Below, one piece after another: positions 257-33,000 of a stretch of 64,000 nt of DNA. Each line of letters opens with the position of its first letter. The first letter of the stretch is position 1. Position numbers and translations under genes: made by a program. The notes below the pieces were generated by a model that was not told where the DNA came from, searched no databases, and saw only the letters and a list, made by a program, of their open reading frames with translations. The DNA is from Owenia fusiformis (Eukaryota; Annelida; Polychaeta; Sabellida; Oweniidae): the NCBI GenBank assembly GCA_903813345.2, contig CAIIXF020000001.1, forward strand, positions 50,235,885 to 50,299,884. The letters are read 5' to 3'.

Positions 257-1720
257 CAGCTCATACAAAAATGCAATTCATAATGTTTTGAGAGAAACCA
301 ACAGTACAGACAATACAGAATATTTAAAACATCAAATAGTTTCATGAACTCATAATATAGCATGTTAAATACATCAACTTGAAATATAGTTTGTGTTGTG
401 TTTAGTCTCACAAGGACCTCCTATTGAAACTTATCGTTTGGATGGGTAAGTTTTTTCAGATTTCCTTGTCAAATTACTAAACAACAAATATCATAATCCC
501 CGACAACAAAAAATATTTCTTGTCAATTGTACACATATTGTTGAATTTCTCTCATCTTTAAGATCTGACCACCTACATTGGTACAAAAAATCTAACAAGG
601 CATTAACATGCAAATGTCACCACCATTCGTTACAAACACAAACCGCAAACCGCCGATCGTCAACTGCCATCACAAAAAATGGAGACCATAACAATATGTC
701 ACCACTTGGTGGAGACATAATAAAATCAGAAGCAAGTCTGTCGCAAAACGTCATGACAACATATCATGACAAGCATCAATCACCCACACAGCATATACTT
801 GTAAATACTTAGTGCTATGCCTTCTTGTCATGGCTCAAAGTCAACATTCTACCAACTGCTTGCATTTTTGTTTTAACAGCAGATCCCATGGTCTCTTCTC
901 CTAGCTGATAGTTTAATGAAAAACAAAACATTAAAGGGACAATGTCAATATTTTAATGTACCCTCTTAAACATAATTAGTAACATCTTGTGGGGGGGAAA
1001 TTCATTAAATTGCATTATTAAAGGTACTAAAGCTTTAATATTGAATGAAATCAATTTTTAGTTTTAAAAATTGTTATGTTCCATTATTACATTTTTAGTA
1101 GAGGGGAAGAGCCAATCTGAATGCTATTAATTATGTTATGGGACCCTAAAATATTGACTTGTTCCCTCAGATGGCCACCTTAGTTCTGTATACTTCTGCT
1201 CATATGAATTGTGTCTATATTCTCAAGATTAAAGGAATGTATATAATAGAATTAGAAATGAAAAAGTGGCTATTCAGTATCAAAACAAACATCGATAGTT
1301 AACAATATTCACTACAGTACAATATTTAACAGAAATTATAATCATAATACAATATATATATAACAAATTATAGGTTTGCACTACAACAGTTTTTAAAGGA
1401 TTTTTGTGAAATAACATGTTCCATGCACTAACAATGTATTTGATACTAGAATAGTACGAATGTAATGCATATTATAAAGAGTTATGCAGCTTCAAAAGCT
1501 TTTTGAATTTATCATACACAGAGGTCGAGATAAGCTGTCACCATTTGCCATTTGCGAATATTTTTAGCACCTGACGAAGATATTGATCTAAATATTTGCA
1601 ATGGTGGTGAAGATCTTTGTACTGAACCTATCCAAGAAACAGATATATTATCGGGAAAATTCCTTAGTTTTCAACTTTCATTTCATCCATGAGATGGCAC
1701 AATTATTTTTGTTTCAATGG
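257..1720. other. Non-coding flank downstream of the anoctamin gene
   Basis: AT-rich sequence. 640-728 carries one copy of a dispersed repeat (ACAATATGTCACCACTT) also found near 12120 and 21455. No other gene or element recognised. Confidence 0.4.
640..728. repeat. Dispersed repeat copy 1 (CCGCCAATCG...TGTCACCACTT type)
   Basis: Shares AACCGCC, GGAGACCATAACAATATGTC and ACCACTT then GACAT-ATAAAAT with 21455-21556; the 12120-12172 copy keeps only the distal part. Confidence 0.65.
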
Positions 1721-2731: not shown

Positions 2732-3013
2732 CTAATATTTTTTGAAAATATTAGCAACATTGGCTAATAATTTTTTCAACTCATCCGGATCCCTGTTATA
2801 CACTTCATTGAAATCTGATTGGTTGATACTTGAGTCACCATTGGCATATTGCACAAAACATATACGCCATTTAACACCTACCAAAACAAGGGCCTCGGAG
2901 TCCTGCAGTGCCTGTTTGGCTAGGTATTTCTCTCGCTTTATCTTGATTTCTAGACTCTCTGGAACATCTGGCACCATGAAGTCTATCAACCTCCCAATAC
3001 CAAACACAATGTG
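2732..3013 (-). CDS. Anoctamin exon 20 (last helix, C terminus, stop)
   Basis: 282 nt including a TAG stop at 2732-2734. Begins [20 protein letters not shown] then [20 protein letters not shown], strongly ANO7-like. The C-terminal 50 residues have no recalled homologue. A candidate internal donor (TTTTG then GTAGGT) lies just after the AL-V codons, so a further 3' exon outside the recognised set is possible. A variant polyadenylation signal ATTAAA (minus strand, near 2688-2693) supports ending here. Confidence 0.88.
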   Translation of the reverse strand, partial: HIVFGIGRLIDFMVPDVPESLEIKIKREKYLAKQALQDSEALVLVGVKWRICFVQYANGDSSINQSDFNEVYNRDPDELKKLLANVANIFKKY

Positions 3014-6000
3014 CTGAAATAAACATAGAATTATCTTCAGTTTAATTTTACCTCATTGATGACTATCATTCCATAAAAAAATTATTTCCCCGAAACTGAA
3101 ACAATAACTTGCATGAGACAATTTACAGACCACCTAATCAGTTCTAATCTTTTAGTTTGACAATAATGTTGTTTTAACCTTGTCAAACTTTATTATCTGA
3201 ATTAATGTATAATTATATACGAGCCTGGCCATAGGAAAACCGGTCTTATCACAAAAATTAAAATTGTTCAACAGAGCCAAAATTGTGCCCAAGATTAAGA
3301 GGGAAATGTGCTAAATTCAAATCCAACATTTTGGTCTATATATGCAAGGAAAAATTGTTAAAACATAAGTCATGGCTCATTTGAAAGGTATCTTTGTGCT
3401 TTTTAAGATAAACAAAAAATCAGAATATTGAAAAAATCTGTGATAAGACCCCTTTTCCTGTGGCCTGGCTCATATATATATCTGAAATAAATGGTACTAG
3501 CCGTATAAAAATGTCAATGAATGTATATAAATGGTTTTACCTCAAACAGTATTACAAAGCCCAGTCTGAGAGCCAGTAAATGCCAGTAGAACAATGAATA
3601 CTCTCCGTTATCGTCTCGGAACCCTTTATATCTAAAATAAATGTTCATGTTTTTTAATAACTTGCTCTCAAACTATTTGTACAATTACCTAGTGGATTCA
3701 TTTTAACTTGGTAACTTGGTAAAATATTGTAAGTTATTGAATGATTTGAAGGGCCATACAGGATATATTCTGTTCCAGAATTCCGTATTGGAACGAGACG
3801 AAGAATATCGAGACAGAATATATCCTGTATGGCACTTCAAATCATTCAATAACGTTTTTATCGTGTGATCCTCTGTATTGCTACGGAGATTTTACAGATC
3901 ATACGATAATTCATTATGCATTATGTTCAAATATTTACAGCATGGGTGATTGCTTCGACTAAACAAATGTACATTCATTGTCAAAAACAAAGTATGTGTA
4001 TGTACATAAAGATGTACAGAGAAAGCAGTGATAGCTCCATCAATTCAGATATCTTCCAAATAACCTTCTAATATGTGGAGATTATCATATTGTACTTTAG
4101 ACGAATGAGTTTTTGGTAAACAACATTAAAATAAGATGCCTAAATGTGTGAAATCTTAGTTTTTTGACTTATTGCTGGCTTGCATTCTAACAATAAGAAA
4201 TAAAAAAAAACATATCCAAAAATCAGACCAAATTATCTTGATGTACCTGCAAGTTTGAGATAGTGTTCCATTGGGTGATGTAGCCAGTGAGAAGTTCACA
4301 TAGCCCTTTAGTTCAGAGTCATACTGGTATCTGTAGAGTATCTTGGGCAGGAACTCCGATGTGAATGCTATCAGAAACGCCTAAAACGCAGAGAGTACCA
4401 TATAGAGATTGAAAAGTAGTTTTTAGCAACACAAATTCAACTATAAGACAAGGTTTTAACATGCAGAATGTTGCCACCTGCCATTTATTACAAACATCAA
4501 ACACCATCCACTTCTGACGGTGACATACAAAACAGAAAGTTACTCATGAGAAATGCAGATCCAATTGAACAAAATATATTTCATCAAATCACTTATCATT
4601 GTGAACATTTAATGATAGAAATAAACAGTTGTGAACATTGTCTTCTATTTGCAAAACCTAACTACAGTATAATGTAATATATATATTTTTTTTTTCTAAT
4701 TTATTTATTTCACTTCATTGTTTACATATACAGTACATACAGTATAATGTAATATACTGGTATGACACCATAAGTTGAACGCTTTTTAGAGGAACCAAAG
4801 ATATTCATTTACACAGGTGTAACACTGTATTACTATTACTGTACATACATTGCTGACTACAGCCAGTTGAGCTAAGGAATCCAGGAGAGTGAACCAGACC
4901 CCTATATCTTGAGCTCTTTCCGCAACAGGCCGTCGATTCTCTGTCACAAACTTGGCAGCATCAAGGCGTATTTCAATCCAGTTGTTTAAGAGAGCAAATA
5001 GTGGTGCTAGGGGAAATGCAGCCACGAATATTGTGATGAAACCAAATTGGAGCACTGGAAAATATATATTTCCTTATTATCATTCAACCATGAACCAAGA
5101 GTATAATATTCATGCGCTAGCAAAACTACCCTAAGAATACTCTGAGATATCCAAAATATATCTCAAATAAAGTATTTAAGGGAAATTAAATGTGATATAA
5201 TTTTATGTACTTGTGGACAAAAAATACAAGACTAGAATTATCCCTTGTTAAAAAAAATGAAGACAAAGCTATTGTTTTGAAAATAAGTTTGATATTATGG
5301 TTTTGTACCCATTTCTAGATATTCTGAGAATAGTCCCTCATCCTCTATGAGCTCATAGTCTTCCTCCCAGCGAGATTTCTCAACATTCTTCCCTGTCCCT
5401 AATTTCCACTTCCGCAACTGAGCCTTCACCTTCCTATAATGAACATGCACATCTAATATTAGTCCTGATTCACCTACATTTTAGTAGTTTTGGCTCAGGT
5501 ATCTTAAACACAAATAAAATCTGAAGAGTACTTGTGAGGATTTCCTACATGCACTTTTTCATTTCAATGTGCTTTGATCAAATGCAAATTTCTATCTTAC
5601 AAATCTAAACAATGCAGATTAGTGTTCTATTTAATAACAATCATTATTTATGTTAGGACACATCATACTGATACATGCATATTATCTACTCTTCATCCCA
5701 AGCTAAACCTAATTAAAGCTTTAATATAAATTATAGCAAATCTGCAATAGTATCCTATTATATAGCATTTGGGAGTGTTAATAGTTTTCAGCGCAATGGC
5801 AGCTAAACAAATTGAGAGTGTTTTTGCATGCCTGTTTATTTTTTGATTTCACTGATTCAGCTTGGCTTTTCCTGAAAGTCTGGCTGTTTCCTGATCCCTA
5901 AGATAAACACTCAAGTGGAGAAAAACTTGGGATATAAAAAGTGTAAGAAATAGTTACACTTCAAGTGAGATACTGTTAGCATTACAGGAAAATATCAAAC

Positions 6001-9000
6001 CATATTTTGTTACATAACTTGTGTTTAACCAATCACAGAATGTGTAACATTACAGTGAGGTAATAAATATGAATATCATTCTTGGCTACTTCCACGAAAG
6101 ATACTAAAGGCTAAAATCAAGAGTAAATAGTTCAAAACTGGGAGACCCCTCCTATTTACAAGATGTAAAAATTAACTTACGGCATTATAAGCTCTTGGGC
6201 ATTGTTGATGACCTGCTTGCCAATCATGATGACAGCAAGGATCTGGGCAAGCTCTATCAGACAACCTCCATTCTGACACTACATGTATGCATATATAATA
6301 TGGGTTAGAAATTTTCCACGGTCTTAAGAGTCTTATGGTCTCCTTTTACAAGGTACCAGAACAATCCCCAACAACACTGATGCTTATACCACTCTATAAT
6401 GAGCCATAGACAATGATGCCTATAACATTGTAGCCACATAGCCCTACAACACAAATGCCAACCACACTGCAGCCATATTCAACACAGATGCCTATTACAC
6501 TACAATCCCATCTAACACTGATGGCTATCACACTATAGTCACATTATACAAGACTTATGGCTCTTACACAATAGCCACATATAACACTGATGCCTGTTAC
6601 ATTATAGCCACATACAACACTGATGCCTACCAGACTATAGCCACATACAACACTGATGCCTATCACACTATAGCCACATACAACACTGATGCCTATCACA
6701 CTATAGCTACATTCGACACTGATGCCTACCACACTTTAGCCACATACAACACCTATGCCTATTATATTATAGCCACATAAAACACTGATACCTACCAGTC
6801 TATAGCCATATACAAAACTGATGCCTGTTACACTATAGCCACATAAAACACAAATTCCTACCATACCACAGCCATATACAACAATTATGCCTACCTGACT
6901 ATAGCCATATACAAAATTGATGCCTATCACACTATACACACATACATTGTTTGAATGTCTTAAATACACTATATTCAACCTCACAGAATTCATTAAACTC
7001 TCCTCTTTAAGGGGCATGTCATGTATGGGAAAAAACTTTCAGATGCTGTATCTACACTATACATTACATACAACAGCAAAAGAGGTACGATATCTAGTAC
7101 TGTACACCTAAAGGAATTCATGAATGGCTACCTACCACACTATAGCCACAATACAGGAACCACACATTCTTCGATGGTTTTATTTGTGTAATGCTGAGAT
7201 AAGTTTATCAGATTTGTATTCTAGTTCTGGAGAGATGATGTAATCCTTTATAATCCAGATCTTGTTATACATTCTACTTTAAAGGGTTGAATTTCTCCAT
7301 CTTATTCTATTTTTAGGGGTTGAATTTCCCATCTTATTCAATTTTTAGGGGTCGAATTTCCCTGTTTTAAATCGTAACTTGATTCAATAATACTTACAAC
7401 AGCTCTCAAGGTACAACAGGCTGTCATATAGTGGACTTTTACCCCAAAATTTCTATCAATGTTTGATGCCAATGCAAATATTACGGGACAATGCCATCCA
7501 TCTACTACTTACGGGACAATGCCATCCATCTACTACTTATGGGACAATGCCATCCATCTACTACTTACGGGACAATGCCATCCATCTACTACTTACGGGA
7601 CAATGCCATCCATCTACTACTTACGGGACAATGCCATCCATCTACTACTTACGGGACAATGCCATCCATCTACTACTTACGGGACAATGCCATCCATCTA
7701 CTACTTACGGGACAATGCCATCCATCTACTACTTACGGGACAATGCCATCCATCTACTACTTACGGGACAATGCCATCCATCTACTACTTACGGGACAAT
7801 GCCATCCATCTACTAATTACGGGACAATGCCATCCATCTACTACTTACGGGACAATGCCATCCATCTACTACTTACGGGACAATGCCATCCATCTACTAC
7901 TTACGGGACAATGCCATCCATCTACTACTTACGGGACAATGCCATCCATCTACTACTTACGGGACAATGCCATCCATCTACTACTTACGGGACAATGCCA
8001 TCCATCTACTACTTACGGGACAATGCCATCCATCTACTACTTACGGGACAATGCCATCCATCTACTACTTACGGGACAATGCCATCCATCTACTACTTAC
8101 GGGACAATGCCATCCATCTACTACTTACGGGACAATGCCATCCATCTACTACTTACGGGACAATGCCATCCATCTACTACTTACGGGACAATGCCATCCA
8201 TCTACTACTTACGGGACAATGCCATCCATCCACTACTTACGGGACAATGCCATCCATCCACTACTTACGGGACAATGCCATCTATCTACTACTTACGGGA
8301 CAATGATCTCCTGGGCGTTACCAATAATTTGTTTTCCGACCATGATGACTGCAAGTTGCTGAGCTAGTTCTATGAGACAGCCACCATTATTGCACTATAA
8401 CACAATACACTAGCTACTGACAATATCAAACCAACTATAACACTAAACTTTAAATAAAAAAACTAAAATTGATTGAATATTAGTAGAATAAATTAAGATA
8501 TGCAAGCATGTGTCTTGTTTAATCATAACATTGTGTTAAATCACAAATGAAGAACATGCAAAAAAGAAATATTAGAATAGTTTAAAGCATCAAGATTAAG
8601 AGGAAATTAAATGAGCAAGAATGCAATTTTAGAATTAACAAATAGCGATAGAATTTCAATATCAAATATTTCAGTGAGATAATAAGAGTGCAATGTCTGA
8701 TTTATAACATATCTTTAGTGTACCTATTTCATATTCAATTCAATTTATTTCAGCCATATATTACACTCTGGTACCTTCAGGAATCAGGGAAATGAATTTC
8801 AAATCTGATTCATCGATTTTTGTTTTGGTGTCACACGCATATTTATTGATTTTGAATAGAAATACAATTAAGGTATGTTAAAAACTGCTATTTTGCCTGG
8901 CAATAAGTATTTGGTCTCCACACATATATTTATTCGTCAATGTGGATTAATTAAGTATTTTCATGCAAGACCAGTGTGAAATGTATAATGCATCAAGTGC

Positions 9001-12000
9001 ACAAACATCTAACCAAAAGGCATTAGTGCACAAACATATAACTAAAATATTAGTGCACAAACATCTCTATCCATAAGCAACCAAATGGTTCATGGGTTGT
9101 CACTTACGGGATAAAAATCTCCTGGGCATTGTTAATGGTTTGTTTACCCACCATGATGACGGCTAGTTGTTGAGCAAGTTCTATGAGACACCCTCCATTA
9201 TTACACTGGAAATCATTACAACACGTCCATGCTCATGCTAAAGCTACATCAACATGACATCTAAACATGAAACGGGTTGAGGTAAACACTCAAAGGGTGT
9301 GGATTATTCACAAAGACAGATCTTTTCGTGCAATGGACCTGAGGCCTGATGATATAGTTATTGCATCTCGAAATAGGGGATGCAATGACTAATTAATCAG
9401 TTGAAAAATATAACAGGCACCCCATTCGTCACCTCAGAAATGACCTTGAAACCCAGAGGGACGAGAAAATCCGTCACAAAATTGTTCACAAAAATTGCTC
9501 TTATTTGAACAATTTTCATCCAATTCACACAAAAATTGTTTTAAAACGTGTAGAAATGATCTCTGCCATCTAATTTTACTAAGTTGAGCATCTAAAGTTG
9601 AAAAGGTATGTAGTAAAATGTCAAAAGGTGGCAAAAATGAAAAATTCTCTGGTTTCAACCAATACTAGAGCCTGGGATTCAAGAGGTTAATAAGTCATCA
9701 ATGAATCCATTAATCAGTCAGCCCATAAATCATGATTCTGGGTTCTGTTTTTAGGAATGTCTAAAGGATTGGTATCGATATGGTGAACTGAATTCAACAA
9801 TGTTTTTCTCTTAAACCAATTATTGAACACATTCTGTAAAAAACGGTCCTTTATGTAATTTTGACCGATTGACAACAATTTAATGCAAAAATTATTTATA
9901 CATATCTTATATAATTATTTTTTGTTTCTTTTTACCAATTCTTAAGAATGAAATAAAATATCTTTCCGAAGCCTTTGGAACAAAATAGCATATATATACA
10001 ACATTTACTTAGACCTCTCAGTATTCTAATTTTACAAAGGGAATTTTGGTTGATTTTACAAAAAGTATTCAAAAAATTAAAACAAAAACCCCCAAAATAG
10101 ATAAAAATTAAGATTAACCTTTTATTTCATTAACAAGATACTTTTTTAAAATCAGCCAAAATTTCCTTTGTACAATCACAATATGGTGAGACCTAAATAT
10201 GTTTTGTTTATGTCATTTTGTTGAGGTTCGGATAGATGTTTCATTTCATTCCGACCATATGATACCAAGAACAAAAGAGGTGTCTGATGTGGTTTGTAAA
10301 ACAATATAGACAAAAGTATATATATTTATTTCAAATTATAATGTCACCATTCAAAAGATGACTATTAAATTGACGATGTGTAAAATTTTCAGAATTTTTT
10401 GATGACTGGTTTAAGAGAAACGTGTGTTCACCATATCGATACCACTCCTTTATGATTAAATTGTATGTCATGGTTTCATGTGAAGGTAAATACTGTTTTC
10501 TAAGAATCCCATGTTTGATAATATTTACAGACCCCTGGTTCCTTTCCACTCATATCTAGCCAGTGGGCCATTTCGGGTAATTTCACTATTCTGTTGACTG
10601 TACACCCTTTGAGTGAAACATTTAACAAGAACCACAAGTACATTGCATTACAAGTACATACATACATTCCCCTCCAAAAGTTTGGCAACATTCCCAACAT
10701 TGGCCCATAAGTTTTGGAAAAATTCATCCAATAAATTTATAACTTAATGTAACTTTGGAAAAAATTCAAACTCAGAATTAAAACAAGTCATTTAGATATT
10801 ATCAAATGATCATTGATGAATTCATGGTTGCCAAACTTTCGGTGATGGGGGGGGGGGAGTGTACTACATCAACAACCTGACAACAATACTAAGATAAGTT
10901 TAGACTAGTAATAGAAAGTATTGAGATTAAACATGCATTGAATAAATCAATTTTCGATTTTATCAGTCAATATTAGAAACCATGTGAATATTAATGATGG
11001 TGACAAAGTATCAGATTTATCAGTTTTTACCTGATTTTATCAGATGTATATAAACTGTGTGGTTGAATTTTAAGTGTGCATATTTTAGTCAAGTTAGTTA
11101 GTTTTAGAACCAAACAGTTTGAACTCACATTCTTGTTATTTTTACATGTATTTTAAATAATGTTTATTTCACTTTCTGTACTTTATTCAGTTGCATTTAT
11201 GAACATGAGTGTTTTCAGGTATTCAATTTACAAATCAAAAAGTGTTGTGAAGCTAGTTTCATTTAATGAGAATATTTGAATAGCCAAGCAGGACAAACCT
11301 CTTCGTTCCTTAGCCCCAATATAGTGTTATAATGGCCAGGGTAGCCCACAAACCTGGAACAAAACATTATTATATATTCATATGCACATTCTAAATGCAT
11401 TATTCATCTAAAGTAGCACTTGTCTAATCCAAACGTCACTGGGACCTACCAAAAGTGTCCGGATTAGCCGGTGTTTACATTTTAAGGTATTATGGCGTCT
11501 ATTCAAACCAAAGATTGGACTTGGGATTATTTTTTAGATCAGAGAGTTTAAAAAATGATAATCCTGTTGATCAATAACATTACGATTTAATCCCTAGCAT
11601 GCAATCAAAGTGTTGAAAGGAATCATATGTAATCAGAAAGACAGAATAACTTATTGTTCGGATTAATGACAAACTATTTATGGGAACCTTAATGTAATTT
11701 GATTGATCATTAAAAATAAGTTAACCATACTACCACTATTGAGCAATAATAACAAGTGTTGACATGTCTGTGTCAACATGTCAGCTAATGTAAACAAATT
11801 CTAGCCACAAATGAGGAATTGTATCATCGAGTATAATCTGTTTTTTCCTAGTTGTATCATATGTATTATAACAGCTGATAACACATGATATGATGCAGCA
11901 AGTAATGATAACAAATTATACCAGTTTCAGACGGGAAACTTCAAAATTTTCCGTATCATTCATTGTTATAATATTGTCTGATACCTCAACCTATGATAAC

Positions 12001-15000
12001 AGATTAAACTGTATTAAAACAACTGATATGTGTGTATCATATGTTTCTTATACTGTATTAATCTGGGCATTTTACATAGTGGAAGCGGTTTTCCTGGAAT
12101 TTTAATGACAATATCTACATGGTGGCTTTAACAATGTGTCACCACTTCTTGATGTTGACATTATAAAATTTAAATCTGCTGCTATATAAACTACTCACCT
12201 TCCCTTGAAGAAAGCTATGTAGAATATTGATGAGTAGAAGTTAAAAAATTGGAACACAAAAACTTTAAATGTTAGCTGATCTTCAAACTCAGTTTGGGTC
12301 CGATGCATTTCTGAAAAAAAGAAAACAATTTCACACCTTAGTTGTGTTAAATATATATGAGATTCATTTCAGAAGATTTTGCCACTTACTATTGGCAGTA
12401 GCTCATCAAATCAACATCAAATCTTCAATTTAATTTCCTTTGTGTAATCTTGGCAAAGCATAGATAGAAATACATACTACAGTACTTTTGTGAATAATGC
12501 AGCTCATTTAGAATTTAAATCATGAACATTTCTGAAATACACTATTTATGTGAACATAGAGGATACAAACAGTGAATTTAAACAAATAACTTACCCCATT
12601 GAGTAAGTTTATAAGCTAGTTTTTCATAGACTCTACCAAGAGCCATAATGAGTATAAGATTGACAATAGCAGCACTCATGCTGGCAATGACTGAGGCTTT
12701 GCTCCTTAACAGTGGATTTTGGAACAGTGGAATGGCAATGAGCACTCGGTACATTATCACAGCTATTATGAATATGATGACTACCACTATCTGAAAAGTA
12801 CAAAAAGTGAAAAAATCATGTATGTAAAAAAGTGTTGGAATAATAAATATAATGATCATATTTAAGGTGATCATCATCGATATGTTCTTAGTCTTACATT
12901 AAGTCAAAAAACTCCTCCCGGCCCCCACCCTCTTAAGAACTTCTCCAACCAGAACTATGTTATGTCATGTCAAGTATGTCATGTCAGGTATTATATATGC
13001 CATTCTTATGTTAGTCTTTCCTTATAAATTTAGTTTACACCTTTTATTCATTACATAATGTAATTTTACAATAAAAACTACAAACCTTGAAACTCCAATG
13101 TATGTCCATTTATACTAATGAATACTAGTTAGCACATAGCGTAACTTGGTTAACACAATTTAGCGCAATCATTTTTCCCAGTTGAACTTTACATCCGATC
13201 TTAACAGAAATACAATAAGAAATGCCAAGAGCAAACAACACATGCAACCAAAGCTATCACTTACCATGATGATAATGACTGCAGCACCCGTGATGATACG
13301 ATAGAGTCTTTTCCTTTCAGGGAAATGTGGTTCCCTCACCCCAGTAACTGGATTCTTCTCAAAGTCTGGTGCTAGCGCATTATACTCTGGTCTGGGACGT
13401 TCCTGGAATTCAAAATATGTACATTGTAGTAGAACTGTCTCAATGAACACTGTCATAACAGAATCAACTGTTTGCATGGGAAAGTGTTCACATTTAAAGA
13501 TTCTTTGAAAGAACTTATTTTTTCTTGAAACAAAAATTCATTAATTTTAGATTCACTCATAGCTAGGCAAGGTATGTCCGATTCCAGCCTATCCGAACAG
13601 AGTATTCACATACTGAACAGTGTGTGAAATATCAATGACGCATTTGTTATGTACAGTTGTTAAGGATTGAGATTGAAATTGAGTTTTCCAATACTTGGCC
13701 CTTGCAAAAAGTTTAATTGAAAATATTTTCTTTTAGTGATTTTGTATTTTTTAAGTGATTTTATAGAAAATATTTTGCAATGTGTGAAAAGAATTTAAGC
13801 CCAAGACTCAGTCCATTGTGGCTGCTTCATTCCACTCAGATGTTGTTTCCTAAATTTTGCATTCCCCCTGCGGGCTCATGCAAAGATTTGGAAACAACAT
13901 CTTCGTGGAATGATTCAGCACACAATGTACTGAGTCCAAGGCTTAAATCCCTAAATAAAGCAATGTGCAAGAAAATTCTAGAAGAGTCCATCTTAAAGGG
14001 GGTGGCTGAGTATTTAAAGCCAGATTCAGTAAGAAATGGAGTCATTAGTAAACCATTAAATTTGAAAATAACTGAAACTGCTTGCTCTGACAATAAATTA
14101 GCCTTTTCCTATAGAATTAATGATCAGATTGCAACATAATTTGTCTCATTTGTGTATGAATATACAATCTTCAAATAAATGTATTTATTTCAATCAGAGT
14201 TATCTTGAAAACACATTAAATCTTCATTTTTTAACTGCTAATGGGAGGAGTTAACAACTCAAAGTACAGCCAATCGGCATTGCAGAAATTAGTCACATGA
14301 TACATATAAACAAAGGGATATTGCTGAGTGCAAATAGAGAACAATGTTTTCTACTTACCAAACATGTGTAGTATTCATCAATTCAAAAACGTAATCCAAC
14401 AATGCCAATGAGTATATATTCCTTTTATTTTAAATGATATTGTTTTATAAGGTCTTTTGCTTGAGTTTATTGATAATCCTTGAATATGTTCCTTGTTTTG
14501 TTTTATACAATATGTTGGTGCTAATAATTGTTGACCTTTTCTCAACATTGTGTATCAAATGCATTTGACAATGTATAAGTCACTAAACTGGTATTGCTAA
14601 GTTTGCATTTTATTCCCACCAAGCTTGTTATAAAGTCTCTGCTTTATAAATCCTCTCCAAGATGTTCTACTTCGATAATAACTTTCTGTTTACTTTTATT
14701 TGCTAGTGCTTGAGACATGATGTAGTTGATTTGAGAACTGTAAGTAAAGTGAAAGTAAAGGGAAGTAGAGACATCCCCTTATATAATTGAATTGACCATT
14801 TTAACATTATGAAGATGACTCAACTATTCTCATTGAAAATTAGTTCACAATTTCAAATTGTATGGTTTATGAGTGATTATGGGTTAGAGACCAGGACATC
14901 CTGGGTTTGGTGTCCCTGAGAAGAATATCTTTCAACAACCCCACTGTATTACCCAACTTTTCCTTATTTTGGACATTTATCATGGTTCTGGTTGTCCTGT

Positions 15001-18000
15001 GTTTGCTTTCATTTCTCTGGATGAAAGGGACATTACATTTCCAGACATTACCCTTGATTTGGGGGATTGTAGGAAACTTGTCGGTATCTCAGGATTGGTT
15101 CATACCATGATCTATAATTCATTTGGCAAATTTTTGAGAAGTTCCCTATAAACTTCTACTAAACTATCCTAAAACCAATTGCTAATGACACTCTTCAAGT
15201 AGATCCTGATTCTTTAGACATTCAAAGTGGTCATTAGTAAAATTCAGCCCATCATTTATGGTAGAATAAGAAGATTACAAATTATGGACTTCTTGAAATT
15301 ATTTGGATAATTAAAAGAATAAAGAAAACTTTATCTCAGATGGCTATCTGTAGATAATAATATTGGTTAAACTAACACCCAATTGTCCTTCATAAACAAG
15401 CACCCTACAAGATACAAAACCCCGCCAAATATACCATGTGCATAGGTCATTATGTTCAGTAAATACTACAGTTATCCATATAAGGAAAGTGAGCCCATCA
15501 GTGATAGGCTAATCCTTAATGTTTAATTATGTAATTTTTATCAGCTATCTAATTTCCTTAATGGGCTGCAGGGGGGTACTCGAGCACGGTCTTTAACTGA
15601 GAAAAAGAGGGTTGCACTTTTGGGTTACCCTGTAAGGTATTTTAATACATTACTTACATCTTCTTCCTCAAAGTCCATACAGTCCCAATGATGGGCAAGA
15701 CTGGCATTCTTCCTCTTCCAGTACTCTAGGAATGCTACAGCTGGATTCAATGAAAAACAGAACAATGTTAAAGAACAACCAAGAATAACAACTAAGTGAA
15801 ACATACATAATCTAAAAGAGATATATGAAATAAACTACAATATATTTTCACATGGGAAAATCTATGGAAGAGGTTACGTTAGTTTGTTTTTATTTTTTCT
15901 TATTATGTTTTGGTTACCCCATTTTGTAGATCAAAGAATCTCTTAATAAAGCACATTAGCAGCCTGTCTCATAAAAGGGGAAATGTACTTAAAGGAGGTG
16001 GGGGGGGGGGTGTTGATCTCAGATGGTAAGAACTTATATTGACTCCTAGATCCTTCAGATCCTTCATCCACATGAAACAAATTATATATGCATTACTTAC
16101 CCCAGAATGACACAAATATGGCGTAGAAGACCGTGCCTGGATGATCAAACAGGTAGCTTATCTTTGTGTACATGCAAACGTCAGAGAGGTTCCAATATTC
16201 ACAACCTACATCCTCATCACAGAGTGGACACATCTTGAATGTAGCATTACTGTTACAGATCTCTTGTCTACAAAACAAATATAAAACAAAATAAAGCACA
16301 ACACTTTCATAATTATTCTTAAAAAATACAATTTATTCAGAAAAAGTATATAACTGAATATATGTTGATTTTTGCTTATTTCCACCAGAAAAACTTTTGA
16401 AACTTTGTTGGAAGGGACTTTTACACATTCTTGCAATATTTGATTTGTTTTGTAAAAACAATATGTGACATTCTCCCCTCCCATTTTTACAGATTAACTA
16501 GATGGATCAAAACATTATCTTGTAAAGGACAAAATGTTGTTTTGGCAATTTGGCTTCCAATTTGTTAATTACTTCAATTACAATTATAAGAATTAAATTT
16601 GGTAGAGCAGATTAAATTGCTTGATGAAGCCACGCAAAATTTGAAAAAATATAATCTGAAGCCAATTTTTAATGATCAGGAAAATCACGGATTCTATCAC
16701 TGACGAATCAGATCATAGAAATTTGAATCAAAGACTGAATCCAAGACCTACAGTATATAAAGCCGATGATGATGAACATCAAATCATAACACCTGAAGAC
16801 ACTGAACAGAACAACAACAAACTTCACAAAGTTGAAGCGACCATTGGAGAAGAAATTAGAGATCTACCACTCAAAGGCAAATATATTACAATGGGAGCTA
16901 AAGTAATGATACAAATAGTTATACTGATCCTTGTACTTGAGTGTGGACAACTACAGACATCTTACAACACAGACATTATCAACAGCAATGTACTGCAGCC
17001 AGAGGTAAGAATTTTATGACTTAAACTTAAGAATTTTGTTTGTGCAAAATATTTTCTACAAATGTTGCTTTTCTTCATTTTACACAAGTTCATCAGTAAC
17101 ATTCTCTGTCCTTTGATAGACACCATACAAAGGAACATTTATTACAAAAGGTTGTCACAATTCTAGAAACCTGCCTCAGCTTTCACAGCATGCCAAATTT
17201 CCAAAACATTAAATGAGAAATAAAACTTGAGCAAGATGTACTGTATGTACACAAAATTCTTTAGAGACTTAATATTACCATTACTTAAAGAACAGTATTT
17301 ACTTCCAAAAGCACAATCTTAAAAACCATTTCTTATCATGTTTCAGGCTGCCATATCAGCCAGTGAAGGCCTCAATACAATGAAGATAGAGTGGTCAACA
17401 CTGATGAACCAGAACACTCCAATGGGACTAAGCATATGTCCGACCTGCATGATGTATGAGGAGGCACTGACCCTAAGCACAAGAATACTCTCTGAAGCCA
17501 TCAACCACGTTCACCTAATGATGACATATTACATACTGCCAGAAAGAGCCAACATTAGATCAGCACGTAAACCTTCAAAATTCATTCTCCCCTCTGGTGT
17601 ATTATTGATTCTGTGCCTGGGAATGAGTCTCATAAAGAATCTATGAAATGACTATATTGACTCCATGTTTAATAGTATATACAGTAAAACCTGCGAAGTG
17701 GAACACCTTTGTAAGTGGAACATCTCCATAAGTGGAACACTCTTCAAAGTCCCGCAGCCTACTGACTTATTGTTAAATGAACCTCTGTAAGTGGAACACC
17801 TCCAAAGAGGAACACTTTCTAGAGGTACCAAAGGTGTTCCACTTACACTGGTTTTACTGTAGTATACAAACAGAAGTATAAACATTGATCTGCTAAACAT
17901 TAACATGAGACATTGTTGGATTCAACATTTTGAAGAAGAGTAACAAGACATTGCCAAATATGTGAAATTGAAGTTGGGATCAATTTAAGTTGCCATTGTT

Positions 18001-21000: not shown

Positions 21001-24000
21001 GCCTATATATACAGTAAAGCATATCTAATCCGAACAGCTATGGGACTGGGTCTAACGTGTTTGGATTGGCAGTTGTTTGCATTTTGAGGTTTTATAACAT
21101 AGGAAGAAAATGTCACCACCTAGTTGCTTACAATATTATTAGTTCAATCTTAAGATTTGAATTTCTGAGACCTTGTAGATGATTTTGAAAAAATAAATTG
21201 GTCAATTTGAAGCAAGATGGAAAAATACCTTTTTGACCTTGAGAAGGTCATTGAAGGTCAAATCTTTTTTGACCTTGAGAATGTAGTTGAAGGTCAAATC
21301 TATTGCCAGGTTTGAACTTTTAAGAACTTGTAGATGATTTTGAAAAAATGGTCAATTTGAAGCAAGTTGAAAAAAGACCTTTTGACCTTTTTTGACCTTG
21401 GAAAGGTCATTGAAGGTAAAATCTCAAATCTTTGTAAGAATTTGTTACAGACGCCGACCAACCAACCGCCAACCGCCAATCGCCAATCACTGACCGCTGT
21501 CAAAAACGGAGACCATAACAATATGTCACCACTTTTTGGTTGTGACATCATAAAATATCTGACACCAAAAGGTGTTTCGATTAGATGGGTGTTAGGATTA
21601 GAGAGGTGTTTGGATCTACAGATTTTACTGTAGTTGATTGATGGATGGTAATTAGAGCTATTATAGACCTATTACCAGACATTGTTATAGAGGTATTATC
21701 TCATCAATTATCCCATTAGTCGTAATAAGTGATAATCACAATAAGTACATGTACATCCTTTTCAATGACAATGCAATATCACTAGCTTTAACTCTTACTT
21801 TCTATTTAGATTTGGAACACTTTTAGAATAATGTATCCCTTTCAACCCATTGCTTTGTTTGACCCTTATAACTGGCCTTTTTTAAATGTTAAAGAATCAT
21901 TTTGTAGCTTTGAACTATGTGTTCAATAATGTATGTACATACACCTTTGAAAACCTTACAACTGATTCATTTACATACCTAGCCATGCAAAATATATTCC
22001 TATTTTCTCTCCAAAGTATTCTCGTATATGGTCTAAGGGCTGATATTTGTACCATACTCCCCACCTTGCCCAGTATTCTCTGAGGATCTGCCGTGGGTTC
22101 AGACAATCATCGGACACATAATGCGTTGGCTTCTCATATGGTCCCTGCAGAAAACAACACATGTAATGTAATGTAATTTTCAATTTCAATAAACATTTAA
22201 CTGAAATTACTCTATATAATTTTTCAACAAGGTATCAAGGTAAAATTGAACCTCCTATGAAATTGTAACAATTGTTACAGACACTAAAGGTTGGTTGTTA
22301 CTACTTCAAAGTGGGGAAACAAAAATTGAGTGAAATAGCGGGTGACACAAAAAATGTCACCCACTAATTTTGGAATAACCTTCTTGATGGTTGAGGAATC
22401 TTCATAACTTTCTATGTGTAGATAGAGTGTCCAATGGAGAAAAGATTGGTATGCTTGCATAGCATCAACACCTTGCAAATTAATTATGAGATATCTCATT
22501 TTCCGTGGAGATATGTCTGACACAAAATCAATTGAAAATGTAAAAATTTGACAAATTATTTCAGAAAAAGTAGATATGATTTATCATTGATAAATATATG
22601 TGTAAAGCAGTAAAAGCAATTCAGACTCAAATAATGGCTAAGACAGAAATCCGAATTTCAGAAAATTGTATTTCTAAACATTTTTTGACGATTTCACTTA
22701 GATAATACCTGGACGGAAAGCATCATATCCTTAATTCTTAAAGTTGTTGATGCTATCAAGAAATAATACTTCTTCTATCCATAGAAAACTCTATTTGTGC
22801 TCAAAAAGCATGAAGATTTTTTAATCATTGAGAAAGTTATACCAATATTAGTGGGTGGCCTTTGATGTGTCACCCTGTACCTGCTGGGAAAGAACCTTTC
22901 CAGCAAAGATTTATTATTTTGATTTAGAGATTCTTATGATGTAACAGCTGTTCATATTACATAGCAATCAACAACATTTCACTTATATTTAATTACCAGC
23001 AAAAGTTAATACTTGTGAAAGAATATCCAAACGAAAAAAACAAACATCAAAATAAAGTAGGGAATAAATAATGTATTGCCCGAAATCCTGATGATGTATG
23101 GATAGGGACTTGACATTTACAAATTACATACATTTGTTGATCAAGTATTCAACATAGAATCAACCATATCTCCTATAGCACATGATTGAGAGAGAAGACT
23201 GTCTGATGTTATGGAATTCCTTTTTTCAATAATATGGGCTATGTAAGCCTTTTGCAAAATTAGCTTTAGCCAACTTCAGACCTCACAGAGTAAAGACTGT
23301 TTTGAATGATCCCTTAATAAATCAGAAGTAAATTTTTGAACGTATATTTCTCAATGTTTCAAATGAGCTTTTTGAGGTTAAAAAAAAACTTATATTTTAT
23401 AGGGACCAATTGGCCCAGGCGTCACTCTTTATACTTGCAGGTATCACTCTTTAAATCAAAAGAATTTTCTGAATACAATTACTTCAAAGTATGTTGAGAA
23501 CTTAAACAAGTGAGCTTAACATTTATTCGGAATTCAATTTACAGACACTCATCCTTTGCACTAAGAATATATCAATTTTCACTCAATTGATAATTTCAAA
23601 AATGTTTATAGCCGTCATATATATACCGGTATGAAAATTCTTTACACCTATTGAAAATAAGAAGAAATGATTAGCTTGAGTCCATAGTACATTACAATGT
23701 GCATATCACATTCACAGTAGTCATTTGTTTTTAAGTTGTGTAGATGAAAGGGATACAAGTTTGAAATTGCACACTGTATTTGTTGATTAGATATTACATG
23801 GCTCATCACTTTTTTTAATTTCCTGTCAAACAAAGAATAATGACGCAGAAAGAATCAGTACAAATTAGAGCAGTCTTTAATCAGTAATTTTCAATCTTAA
23901 AGTAGAGTTAATCAAGAGATTAAAACAATATACACTAAAACAATTGCCAGGAAATCTTTGTGTTTCAAATTAATTTGCAACCTACGTCATGCAACGGAAA

Positions 24001-27000
24001 TGCTGCGGTGAAAACATCTTCTTCTAACAAACGATCAATTCCAATTTCTGCACGTTTTCTTTTGCCGTATGTGGAAGTTGCCAGGATCTCGTAAACTACA
24101 CGATGACGCTGAGTATGTGTGAAGTAAGTGTCATGATTTTCACTGCCCAGGAACCTACAGAAAAGTAAATGTGCAATTCAACAAGACACCCAGTGATAAA
24201 CACACTTTTTATCAAAAAATTCAAAATTGTCAGACACAACTCTTATTTCTAATATATACCACAATCAATATCCCCAAAAATCAATTCCATTTCATTTTCA
24301 ATTGATCAAGCAATAAGGAGTGGTCAAATGTGATTAATATACATGTTGGCTTACCTGTCTATCTTTGACTTTCTAAATGGGCATGTGAAATAGTCTAATG
24401 GATGGTTGGGCACATCAGAGTCCATTATATTTGGGATGTGTAGCTTACGTAACACTTTGGCTGACCAGTTATCTGTTGGATTGGGATGAGCCTAAAATAG
24501 TATAAAAATAAAACAAATAGTATTTTCAAATTAGGATATCAGTGCAAATTAGTAACATTATGGGATCAATCTGCAAATCTATACTGCAAATACAGGGTAA
24601 TTATTTAGTTCCTTTATTGCAGATGATGTCTTGACATCATGATTTTAACATGTTTGGAGGTTGAGGAATTATGGAGAATATATACAAACAATTTATATTT
24701 CATTCACAAATATTTGTCTCAACAAAGATACATTTCAAACAGATAGTTATTACTGTAATAAATTAACTAAAACTTTAATTTTATTACATAATAAACATTC
24801 AATCAATGCCATCCTTATTTGGTGATCTAATTTATTACATCATACAAAAACTGAACCCTTGAAATTGTGTGAAGATTGGGAAATTGTGTTTTGCATAGAA
24901 ATTCTTTGACAAAATAGTCCTACAAAAACACTGCAAAATCTTCTTTCAGAGAAAAGAAATTATGATTAAAACCTCTCAAAGGAACTGATATTAGATATAC
25001 AATAATGGTTTGAAAGGTCAATTTTTCCTGAAATATGTTTTGGCTGAGAAATATGAAGATGAAACTGATCAATTTCAGTCAAAATATTTTTTCTAGATTG
25101 TCTTAAAGAGTGACCAGATCAGCTTGACCTTGGAGTTTTAACACAGGACATCAATTTCACTTCCAAATATAGAGCTGTCAATCAAGATATTGAACTGTGT
25201 GGAAGAGTAAAAGTTATTTTTAGTTTGACTGATGTGGATGATGTTCATCTTGAATTGTTTTCAGAAACACCCTATGTATAGTCTGTCACATGACCTTAAA
25301 AATGATGGGTGGGCGAAGCGTTCGCGAATCTTTCCACTTCAGGTTTATAATGATATTTTTTACATGGTTTTAGACTTTGTATCTCTGTGTAACTTGTCCC
25401 GTACAATCAATGTCTAAAGACAATTAATTCTCTAAATATTTCATTTATGCAATTCCCGGTTAAAGAGAAATTCACACTTTTGTGTCTCAGATCAGAAAAT
25501 GATGTGTGTGCAATCGAATCGAATTTCAGGAATAATAACATTCTCATGAAATATGAACCTAGTAAAGGTTATCCGTTGTCAATCAACATATTAGTTACAT
25601 GTCAATTTGATTAACACTTACACCTATTACTGTTTATTCGACCGGTTAATTCAAGGATGGACATCGATTAAAAATAATTTTAATAAATTAATAATAATTT
25701 TGTATTTTTATTTAACAAGGTGGGTATAGGTAACGCGGCGCAGTCAAGCATATCTGTTCAAAACGAGGCTGCAACGCGGTAAAGACACAAAATGGAGGCA
25801 ACTCCAATTATCGGAGGCACTTCGTCCTCTGTTTCCTCGAAACATAGGTAAGTTTTGGAAAACTCATGCTTCACACTCGGTGATCAACCCCTTAAGGTAT
25901 GTAAAGCTATAAGAATTTCTGTTCAGGCATTGACCAGAGTAAAGAAATAGTCAACGCAGATATGATTTCCCGATCCTATTTCTCTTGACCTATCTTCTTA
26001 TTCCAATTAAGGAGGTATTTCGCCACTCATGAGCAAATTTAACATTGACATTCAATAGCCTGATACTTATAGAATGTACATTACAAATTAAGATTGAAAC
26101 TTTTGTTTATTTTCATCGCAATCTGCTTACAAAATTGAACTAGCCGGAAACGCGGCGCAGTCATTTTCAGCAATTATGGCAACGCGTCGACAGCATAGAT
26201 TAAATTGTATGGCAACGCGGTGCAGGCATCAACTTTCTCTGTATTGTAAAGTACAAAGAAGTTTTGCATTATGTATCTAACTCATTACATCCCATCTGGT
26301 GCATAATTATCTTGGTGTTTTTGTCCTGAAAAAAGCAGATAGAGAATGCTTTGATAATGTAATTATCGTACACGATAGAACATCAGCTGCATTGCTGTCA
26401 CTGCGTTTCCAGTTTTGTCAAATATGTATGATGTCTGAACCCGCGTTGCCGAAGTGTCTGAACTGCGTTTCCAAAATATACCTGGTTTTCCACCCAGAAT
26501 CGGTTAACAGAAGGCAAACAGTGATGAAACTTTGAAGAAATAGAGATTACCGTGGTATACGTGATTTAATAGATATGTGTCAAGTGACAAAGTCAAAAAC
26601 ATAGAATTTAAGCTAGAAAAATGCCACAATTGTCAAATTTCAGTAAGTGATTGACTTGGAATGTATTTCCCTGATTGACTAAATTTCAAGAAGCTTCATA
26701 TAGACATACTCTGTGAAGTTCTCCACCGAATGGTATATGCTATTATAACTGTACCAGACACAAACTAGTGTATGAAGCTTATGAATAAACTTACCGCCCT
26801 TTCGACCTTCCACTGAGTGGCCATTTTGTGTCTTTGCCGCGTTGCAGCCTCGTTTTGAATAGATATGCTTGACTGCGCCGCGTTACCTCTGACCACGGTG
26901 TTTAACAAATGCGAGAGTTGCATGATGACACGGATTATATATTTCTGTATTTACGTTGCAATTGTAGTGAATCTTTTAAATGGTAAGTCTGTTATTCATA

Positions 27001-30000: not shown

Positions 30001-33000
30001 TGGTTATAGCTACCATATTAGGAGAGAAATGGCCTGGCCAGGAATGTTCCTTTAACAAAGCATTACAAAGCTCAGCAAAGCTTGACTCAAAGCGTAGGTA
30101 AGCTTAACAGAGCTTGGTTCAAAGTGGGGACCCTAGTCTTCACGGTCTGTCACCGCTTGACACGCTTTGATTGTTTTGATTGTTCTGGCGAGAAACCAAC
30201 GGGGTCTTCTCATTTGCATAATCAGGTCACCTTATACCGCGGTATAGAGCTGGGTAAGGGAGAAAACTGACCCCTCTATACACCATTGTGTAATGCAGAT
30301 CATATAAAGCCCCTGATGTTGTGTCGTTTCATTTGGTACACAACTAAGCCCTGGGTATTAAATAAGCCCTTGATACGTGTACATGTTTATTTTAATCTCA
30401 GTCATAAACTCTGCAGCCAATGAAAAGCCATGTTTTTGTTTTTATCACCTAGCCCTTTCACTGAAAATGTCAATGCATGGGATCGCAAAGTAGTAAGTTA
30501 TACGTAATAATACAAATAAAATTACAGACTTTTTACAATCTGGTTTGTGGTTCGCGAGCACAGATCTCTGTTCGCGAGTGAAGAAATATGTTCGGGACCA
30601 AGGAAATGATGATGCACGGCTTGAGATTTCTTGTTCACGACGTTAGAATCGTGGTTTGAGCCCAAGGAACATAATTTGCAGGCTCAAAACTGATGTTCGC
30701 GTTGTTGTTAGACTAGGAGGTATTCCACGTTTACCCGAAGCCTTTTTATTTTTAAGTTGGTTCACTACCGTATTGATCTCTTCATATATTATCCTGTAAC
30801 TAAGTTCGTCAAAATTAGACTCGTTTTCTAGTTTTTTCAATATTTTCAAAACGTCTTTGTCATCAGTATTGTCATTTGAAAACAGTTTAGAAAAAATGCA
30901 TGATTTTTCAATTCAGATGCCTCTATAATTATATCAGAAGGGTTAGATGTTTTACTGTCTTCTGAGGCTGCTTAAAAGCTTCCAATATTTCAAAGGATTA
31001 TTTAGTCCAAATTCTTCCAGTTTCGATAATATTTAATCTGAATGGATTTTTCAGATTGTCTTGCCTTAACGGACGATGAAGTAACTATTATGGCCAGTAA
31101 CTTTCTCGCCACAAGAAAAAACATCCATGTTTTAAATGGAAACATGAGCTATTTGGATTCGGGCCCGGTAGATGCCAAATATGTAGTTGTTTTATTACAC
31201 GGAAACCCCACTGCTGCGTATCTATGGAGAAATATTGCACCGTATCTCATTCAACATGGGATACGTTGCGTTGCGCCTGATCTGATTGGAATGGGACATT
31301 CATCAAAAATTCCTAATTCGTGGTACTATGTATCAGATCATGTACGTTATATAAATGAATGGTTCACATTGATGAAGTTTCCACGCAAGATCAACCTTGT
31401 TGTACATGACTGGGGAGGTCCATTAGGATTCAACTGGGCAATGAACAACAAACGCCGTGTTCAGTCTTTGACCTTTTTTGAGGCACTTGTGACATATTCC
31501 GAAAATTTAGATGCTATGTACGATAGCATGCCCATATTTAAAGAATTTAGGTCGCCAGCGGGAGAAAAGCTAGTTTTAGAAGAAAATGCATTCTTTGACT
31601 TGTTTTACGAACTATTGCCTGGCGTTTTGTCTGACAAAGATAAAGCCGAATATTTAGTGCCTTTTTTGGAACCTGGTGAATCGAGACGTCCTATGCTTAC
31701 TTTTCCAAGAGATCTTCCCAGAAAATCAGAGCAGCGTAGCTGCTTTGTGAACAAGATGACGAAAAAGTATTCATCGTGGCTTGCCAAGACCAAGAGATTC
31801 CCCAAGCATGCAATTCTTGCATACCCTGGTATACTAACTCCTGCAATGGCAGATACAGTGAAGGACTGGGCAAATATTGAGTTCACAAATGTGACTGGTG
31901 ACCGCCCAATGTTACATTACTTTCAAGAGGAAGCACCAAGACCCCTTGGAATGGCAATTGAGAAAATTCTTGTGAGGGTCTTGAAAATTAATACGCCGTT
32001 ATAAAAAGATACTAAATCTTTTTCCTGAATTGTTAGATATATGATATCTATGAGCAATTTTGACGAATTGCAGGCTAAGCTAACGAAGATCTTAGATATG
32101 AGCCCTAATTTTGGTGACATTTTATCATTGCAATTCATAAAACTGTAGCTAAACTGAATGCTACATTTTGTTTTTTGATGTTGTGTACTTATGGTCCTTG
32201 ATTCCTTTTCTCGTAACTTTAGATAGAGTATGAATAAAGAGTCCCATGATCTTGTGAAATAAAAATGAAATATGTACAATATTCATAAGCCATCGGGTTG
32301 GTGTTTTATTTAAGGAAAAATAATTTTGTAACATTCTTTAGAGGAAATTTAGACATGATTGCATGGCCTTACCCGTGCAAATAATGCACGGGGCGAAGTC
32401 TGAGTACATTACCAGGATGGGTTAATATACTCGTATGATTGAATGCTTTAAAATGCAATAAAGAATGATACAAGTTTTTCTTATCGCAACTCAAAAAATG
32501 ACATTAATCTAGTTCTTCATAAAATCATAATGCACTGTGATGATGTCACTCTTTAACCAAAAATGACACTGCTCAGTTCCTAATCAAACCGTAAGGGGCG
32601 GGGTCAAAATATCGATGTTCATATGGAGACGAAAGTACTTTCGCGAGGGGGGAGGGGGTTTTTGGGCACTTTCGTTGACCAAAAAAACATCGATAATTCG
32701 GATCTGATATACAAAAAATAATTGGACTTACCCACTTTTTCTGGCACTATGTTCTGATAAAAAGGCTTGTTTTCAATAGTTCGTGAGCTTTTTTGTGTGA
32801 CAGGTCCAAAATATCGGTAGATAAAGACGATAATTCGATCATTTTTCAAATAGAGTTCAATGCAGTTAAATTGCGAATGTGTGTTAATTCACCGTAATAA
32901 TAACCCGGCAAATAGGATACGATTATTAATCAATGTTTTTTTGAAGTGACCTAAGCTTTCGTCTAGAGGGGGGGTGGGGGGTTGTTGTCCAAACGAAATT

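Follow-up and report, generated by a model that had tools for sequence, protein, structure and literature searches.

The 64,000-nucleotide (nt) stretch of the Owenia fusiformis genome considered here (contig CAIIXF020000001.1, positions 50,235,885 to 50,299,884; hereafter the window) carries on its minus strand an anoctamin (TMEM16) gene in which the exon for the sixth transmembrane helix (TM6) is found in three tandem, homologous versions, one of which encodes a glycine at the place of an asparagine of the calcium-binding site. We consider it probable that a TM6 exon was duplicated twice, that the copies are used in a mutually exclusive manner, and that the isoform containing the middle copy, exon 15b, has an altered calcium dependence. 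The splicing interpretation, in which the copies specify mutually exclusive functional isoforms, appears well supported by the sequence, and the calcium interpretation, an altered calcium potency of the 15b isoform, appears plausible. Through the choice of this exon, splicing may be able to alter the calcium sensing of the protein.

Three exons for one helix

The alternative exons, in the order of transcription, are the following.

9108 to 9205, minus strand: alternative TM6 exon a (15a), 98 nt, encoding NNAQE
8297 to 8394, minus strand: alternative TM6 exon b (15b), 98 nt, encoding GNAQE, with Gly at the TMEM16F N620 position
6181 to 6278, minus strand: alternative TM6 exon c (15c), 98 nt, encoding NNAQE

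An earlier note on this DNA had described three tandem 98-nt TM6 exons, and the description holds at these coordinates, as all three lie on the minus strand, are preceded by AG and followed by GTAAGT, and are of equal phase. It had further argued that exons whose length is not a multiple of three should exclude each other, and this logic was borne out in a hand-built gene model of 13 exons per messenger RNA (mRNA), which runs from exon A (16101-16267) to exon M (815-904). Any single copy, be it a, b or c, yields an uninterrupted 13-exon reading; the pairs a and b, a and c, and b and c, as well as all three together, reach a stop within the first few residues of the second copy. The omission of all three leads to a stop as well. 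The trio displays the hallmarks of a mutually exclusive cluster, namely tandem homologous exons of equal length and phase, with loss of the frame when two copies are included or all are left out. We infer that the copies are used singly, that exclusivity is enforced at least through the reading frame, and that transcripts with two copies or none, with their premature stop, would probably undergo mRNA decay. A fourth TM6 copy was sought in the window by tblastn at an expectation value (E) below 1, and only the three were found; the one further match of a TM6 profile in the window (11 positions, 24099-24242, E 0.54) was taken as chance.

The three TM6 exons are old and constrained. Exons a and b differ at 18 of the 98 nt, a and c at 25, and b and c at 31, with 13, 17 and 22 of these differences, respectively, at third codon positions. 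Nonsynonymous divergence according to Nei and Gojobori (dN) is correspondingly 0.07, 0.17 and 0.16, at a synonymous divergence (dS) of 1.34, 1.62 and saturation. When the same substitutions were placed at random, as few amino-acid changes were obtained in 0 of 20,000 trials for each pair, so that the aligned copies of the helix to which the earlier note had pointed reflect purifying selection and not chance. Copies that are this old, and all still coding and conserved, are as expected of exons that are used. Around the three exons, no flank similarity of the kind left by a shared duplication was seen. An 87-nt identical match of the downstream flank of 15a with the upstream flank of 15b was merely the overlap of two flank windows inside a 713-nt intron; the next best match, of the downstream flank of 15b with the upstream flank of 15c (E 2.8e-4 and 0.001), joins a stretch near 7131-7155 to a 33-base-pair (bp) minisatellite in the same intron (listed below), and the remaining ones have E values of at least 0.012.

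The paralogues serve as a control. Six other anoctamin loci were found in the genome with Pfam (two on C11, two on C10, one on C2 and one on C3), and an additional weak anoctamin match on C2 fell below the cut-off. The TM6 profile was run on eight genomic stretches and was built partly from these same sequences, for which reason only the absence of a second TM6 copy is informative. One copy per paralogue was found, strong in four genes and weak in those on C3 (E 0.2) and C2 (E 0.56), in which tblastn for TM6 gave no match; other profile matches in the paralogue stretches (E 0.087 to 4) were short or broken and were taken as chance. The paralogue on the minus strand of C11 (L001) has one TM6 exon, 98 nt long and equal in phase to those of the trio, and therefore one copy of this length is likely the ancestral state. 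In the proposed history, such a single exon would have been duplicated twice, long ago, in the gene of the window.

Two observations on the paralogues stand apart from this comparison. The two anoctamin genes on C10, near 34.59 and 34.72 Mb (L005 and L006), are similar to each other and lie in opposite orientation about 130 kb apart. The likely TM6 of the C2 anoctamin (L008:5262-5486, KPVVKFSKDIILP, a weak alignment) has neither Asn nor the Glu at the calcium site, and this gene is possibly a calcium-independent member of the family.

A changed calcium ligand in exon 15b

The calcium ligands of TMEM16F comprise N620, N621, E624, E667, E670, E699 and D703 (PMC8640346), and N620 is also part of a slightly differently numbered set of ligands (PMC11822650). 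Aligned with the mouse TMEM16F chain, with 55% identity over 204 residues from TM5 to TM8, the 15b isoform has Gly at N620 and retains N621, E624, E667, E670, E699 and D703 as well as the hinge residue G615. The claim of the earlier note that 15b replaces the first calcium-ligand Asn of TM6 with Gly was thereby upheld, with the other six mapped ligands, including the second TM6 Asn (the N621 equivalent), intact. Isoforms a and c, with NNAQE, have the full set, of which E667, E670, E699 and D703 are encoded by shared exons. The note had also equated the replaced Asn with N650 of TMEM16A, and this stands in part: it is correct when counted back from the Glu, but HMMER aligns the Gly to Q649 and places a gap at N650. 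Because TMEM16A has one extra residue here, the assignment holds only by counting from the Glu; Q649 of TMEM16A has likewise been aligned to a gap in TMEM16F (PMC6690719). The TM6 of the window gene has one residue fewer than TMEM16A/B near the hinge (pi bulge), as does TMEM16F, which is without the extra residue that accompanies the pi helix in TMEM16A (PMC8640346) and that has been used as a criterion for the TMEM16A/B channel type (PMC8640346; PMC6414204).

The history of the substitutions points to the same codon. When the 18 differences between 15a and 15b are assigned by parsimony with 15c, the 15b lineage receives 10, of which 7 are synonymous and 3 nonsynonymous, and the 15a lineage 4, two of each kind; 4 synonymous ones are not placed. 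In 15b the ligand codon went from AAC, which is also found in the C11 paralogue, to GGT, with all three bases changed (two nonsynonymous changes and one synonymous), and outside this codon the 15b lineage has only one other amino-acid change. With the counts per codon position kept, all three changes would fall in the ligand codon with a chance of about 0.0004. For any codon the corresponding figure is about 0.014; the test was picked after the data were seen.

Under the proposed mechanism, isoforms a and c would retain the full calcium site, and isoform b, with one of its three TM6 ligands turned into Gly, would need more calcium or have a more flexible lower TM6. Mutants of other TMEM16F ligands, E624Q and E667Q, show reduced activity or calcium potency (PMC6414204). 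Several findings nevertheless speak against a strong effect on the calcium response. The TMEM16F mutant N620A itself is reported as one that 'did not facilitate' calcium or voltage gating, which gives no measure of how far the mutation weakens it (PMC6690719). Both C10 genes natively have Gly at the N620 position (VIGNINE and VIGNIKE), and a weak alignment places it in the C3 gene too (LIGQILE). Gly in three paralogues therefore appears to be a tolerated natural state, which weakens the calcium claim, and the lower TM6 of 15b is closer to the C10 type than to a site that is broken. The resemblance of the C10 and C3 genes is presumably to ANO8 and ANO10; in the solved chain 5oc9 of ANO10 an Asn stands at the N620 position, again in a weak alignment.

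It is possible, if on balance unlikely, that the trio is exclusive and its isoforms differ in trafficking, lipid or gating traits other than calcium affinity. The Gly would then be near neutral because N621 and E624 remain, much as the two C10 genes have Gly-Asn-x-x-Glu and the weakly aligned C3 gene has Gly-Gln-x-x-Glu, and the copies do vary at other TM6 positions too. Such neutrality fits poorly with the place of N620 among the listed ligands (PMC8640346; PMC11822650) and with the concentration of change in the ligand codon, and an altered calcium dependence of the 15b isoform is the reading that we prefer.

The donor array and the choice of exon

Two minisatellites lie between 15b and 15c.

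7481 to 8305, minus strand: 28-bp minisatellite, 29.5 copies with 99% matches according to Tandem Repeats Finder
6438 to 6946, minus strand: 33-bp minisatellite, 15.4 copies with 75% matches, more diverged, ending about 160 nt upstream of exon c

On the minus strand, the 28-bp unit joins the final 9 nt of exon 15b to the GTAAGT donor of this exon and the intron sequence just after it. With the real donor (8296) counted, the array presents 30 TCCC|(G/A)TAA sites at an exact 28-nt step, 27 of them with GTAAGT, and 24 of the 30 units are identical. A genome-wide search for the pattern with up to 3 mismatches gave 29 matches, all of them within the array, and a reversed control gave 0. Splicing from any of the 29 further sites would read CCG TAA, a stop directly past the normal exon end. 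The array, which was absent from the earlier note, bears directly on whether 15b gives productive mRNA. In all likelihood it is a passenger, a minisatellite that arose from the exon's own donor. A scan of the array for bacterial promoters and terminators, which is not meant for animals, found 0 sites.

The array threatens productive splicing of 15b, and in this respect it counts against functional use of the exon. We infer that some splicing of 15b would go to array donors that lead into a stop, resulting in less productive 15b. A more far-reaching version, to which we assign a low probability, is that splicing rewrites a gate ligand, with an ordinary site in isoforms a and c and a Gly site of the C10 kind in isoform b, and that a rapidly changing, self-copied donor array determines how much of the low-affinity form is made. 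This array would make most 15b RNA unproductive and may vary between individuals. In another unlikely reading, 15b would mainly be a poison exon, with the 29 further donor-like sites (26 with GTAAGT) capturing splicing and inclusion of the exon lowering the level of the gene. The exact spacing of the sites and the stop that follows a Pro in all 29 extensions suit this role, and there is a precedent for minisatellite-supplied donors that are used: in the IFI6 (6-16) minisatellite, two downstream repeat units serve as splice donors (PMC4526556, citing Turri 1995). The repeat of the window differs from that of IFI6 in its unit of 28 bp, in its position on one of three homologous exons, and in that every extra donor brings a stop. 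What disfavours a pure poison exon is that it has no need of a constrained coding sequence, whereas the changes of the 15b lineage are 7 synonymous to 3 nonsynonymous; furthermore, the array is young-looking and the exon is old.

As regards the control of exclusive splicing beyond the reading frame, the candidates that were tried provide no support for it. Steric exclusion is ruled out as the cause, as the introns around the trio measure 2093, 713, 2018 and 747 nt, and hence at least 713 nt. Weak acceptors as a sign of regulation were likewise rejected, with 9 of 16 pyrimidines in each exon of the trio, compared with 7 to 13 of 16 in 12 other exons. The duplex energy of intron segments, a crude method for long introns, beat the best of 11-12 shuffles in 0 of 10 segment pairs and was better than the shuffle mean in 3 of 10. 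Pairing of donors with introns, tested 12 times, gave lowest counts of 2, 4, 4 and 5 among 60 shuffles and does not stand out convincingly over that number of tests, and a search for docking and selector pairings listed 23 inverted-repeat pairs in one genome only.

Separately, the intron that precedes exon a contains nested inverted repeats at 9762-10452 (27 nt at 96% and 19 nt at 89%), which resemble a small hairpin transposon.

That 15a or 15c is the sole copy in use, the others being duplication relics, is very improbable, because divergence of this degree, with dS high to saturated and dN at most 0.17 in every pair, should have cost the relics their frames and splice sites, and all three frames are open and the splice sites intact.

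The gene and its place in the family

The identity of the gene as an anoctamin rests on exon matches to PF04547 and matches to PF16178 (Anoct_dimer) on one strand across the locus, and the window protein matches ANO1 chains in phmmer with E values down to 1.8e-132. All 14 introns of the hand-built model, with each alternative exon counted, start with GT and end with AG. Apart from the trio, the gene is composed as follows.

43680-43874, 40849-40962, 23974-24156 and 22034-22147, minus strand: matches to the N-terminal Anoct_dimer domain (PF16178), assigned to this gene as exons
16101 to 16267, minus strand: exon A, first transmembrane segment
15658 to 15740, minus strand: exon B
13265 to 13402, minus strand: exon C
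12595 to 12790, minus strand: exon D
12199 to 12310, minus strand: exon E, TM5
11299 to 11353, minus strand: exon F, upstream of the trio, donor GTTTGT
5309 to 5433, minus strand: exon H, downstream of the trio, start of TM7, translation with EYLEM, two ligand Glu
4849 to 5054, minus strand: exon I, TM7 to TM8, ligand Glu and Asp
4247 to 4380, minus strand: exon J
3541 to 3631, minus strand: exon K
2882 to 3013, minus strand: exon L
815 to 904, minus strand: exon M, stop codon at its end

In the N-terminal part, no match was found to positions 84-131 of the Anoct_dimer profile. Human ANO7 (TMEM16G) is probably the protein that the window protein resembles most. Scramblase activity has been reported for human ANO7 (PMC9239746). 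Within the anoctamin span, between the dimer-domain matches and on the opposite strand, lies an open frame of 320 codons (31042-32001, plus strand) with an Abhydrolase_1 match (E 8.8e-24), and further tandem arrays are located inside the N-terminal span of the gene (36149-36541 and 39275-39786). A search for a mitochondrial COX1 sequence gave no match.

Mutually exclusive exons that tune calcium binding have a parallel in NCX1 (SLC8A1), in which exons A and B alter the calcium-binding domain and its affinity. There, the change affects a cytosolic regulatory domain of an exchanger, whereas in the window gene the ligand lies inside a membrane helix that forms part of the gate. Among anoctamins, alternative splicing of segments a, b, c and d of TMEM16A/ANO1 shifts calcium sensitivity, and the variants of TMEM16A, TMEM16B and TMEM16F affect the termini and the first intracellular loop (PMC8835819; PMC8480199). 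The ANO1 segments are located in the N-terminus and the first intracellular loop, and in the relevant parts of these sources none of them is described as exchanging TM6 or a calcium ligand; the word 'mutually' is absent from PMC8480199, which deals with ANO1 splice segments, and PMC12592175 has the phrase mutually exclusive solely in a cited work about a calcium channel. The earlier note knew of no described anoctamin with such an arrangement, and among open-licence PMC papers, mostly judged by title or abstract, none was found. What is new lies in the place that the apparently exclusive exons occupy, an unusually informative one within a known family, and in the donor array that accompanies them.

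If the proposed reading is true, nature would have set up, within one gene, an experiment on the calcium gate of TMEM16 proteins, in which splicing supplies a protein that either has or lacks one of its ligands. Furthermore, as one of the three competing exons carries a donor minisatellite that looks young, the effect of repeated donors on exon choice becomes testable.

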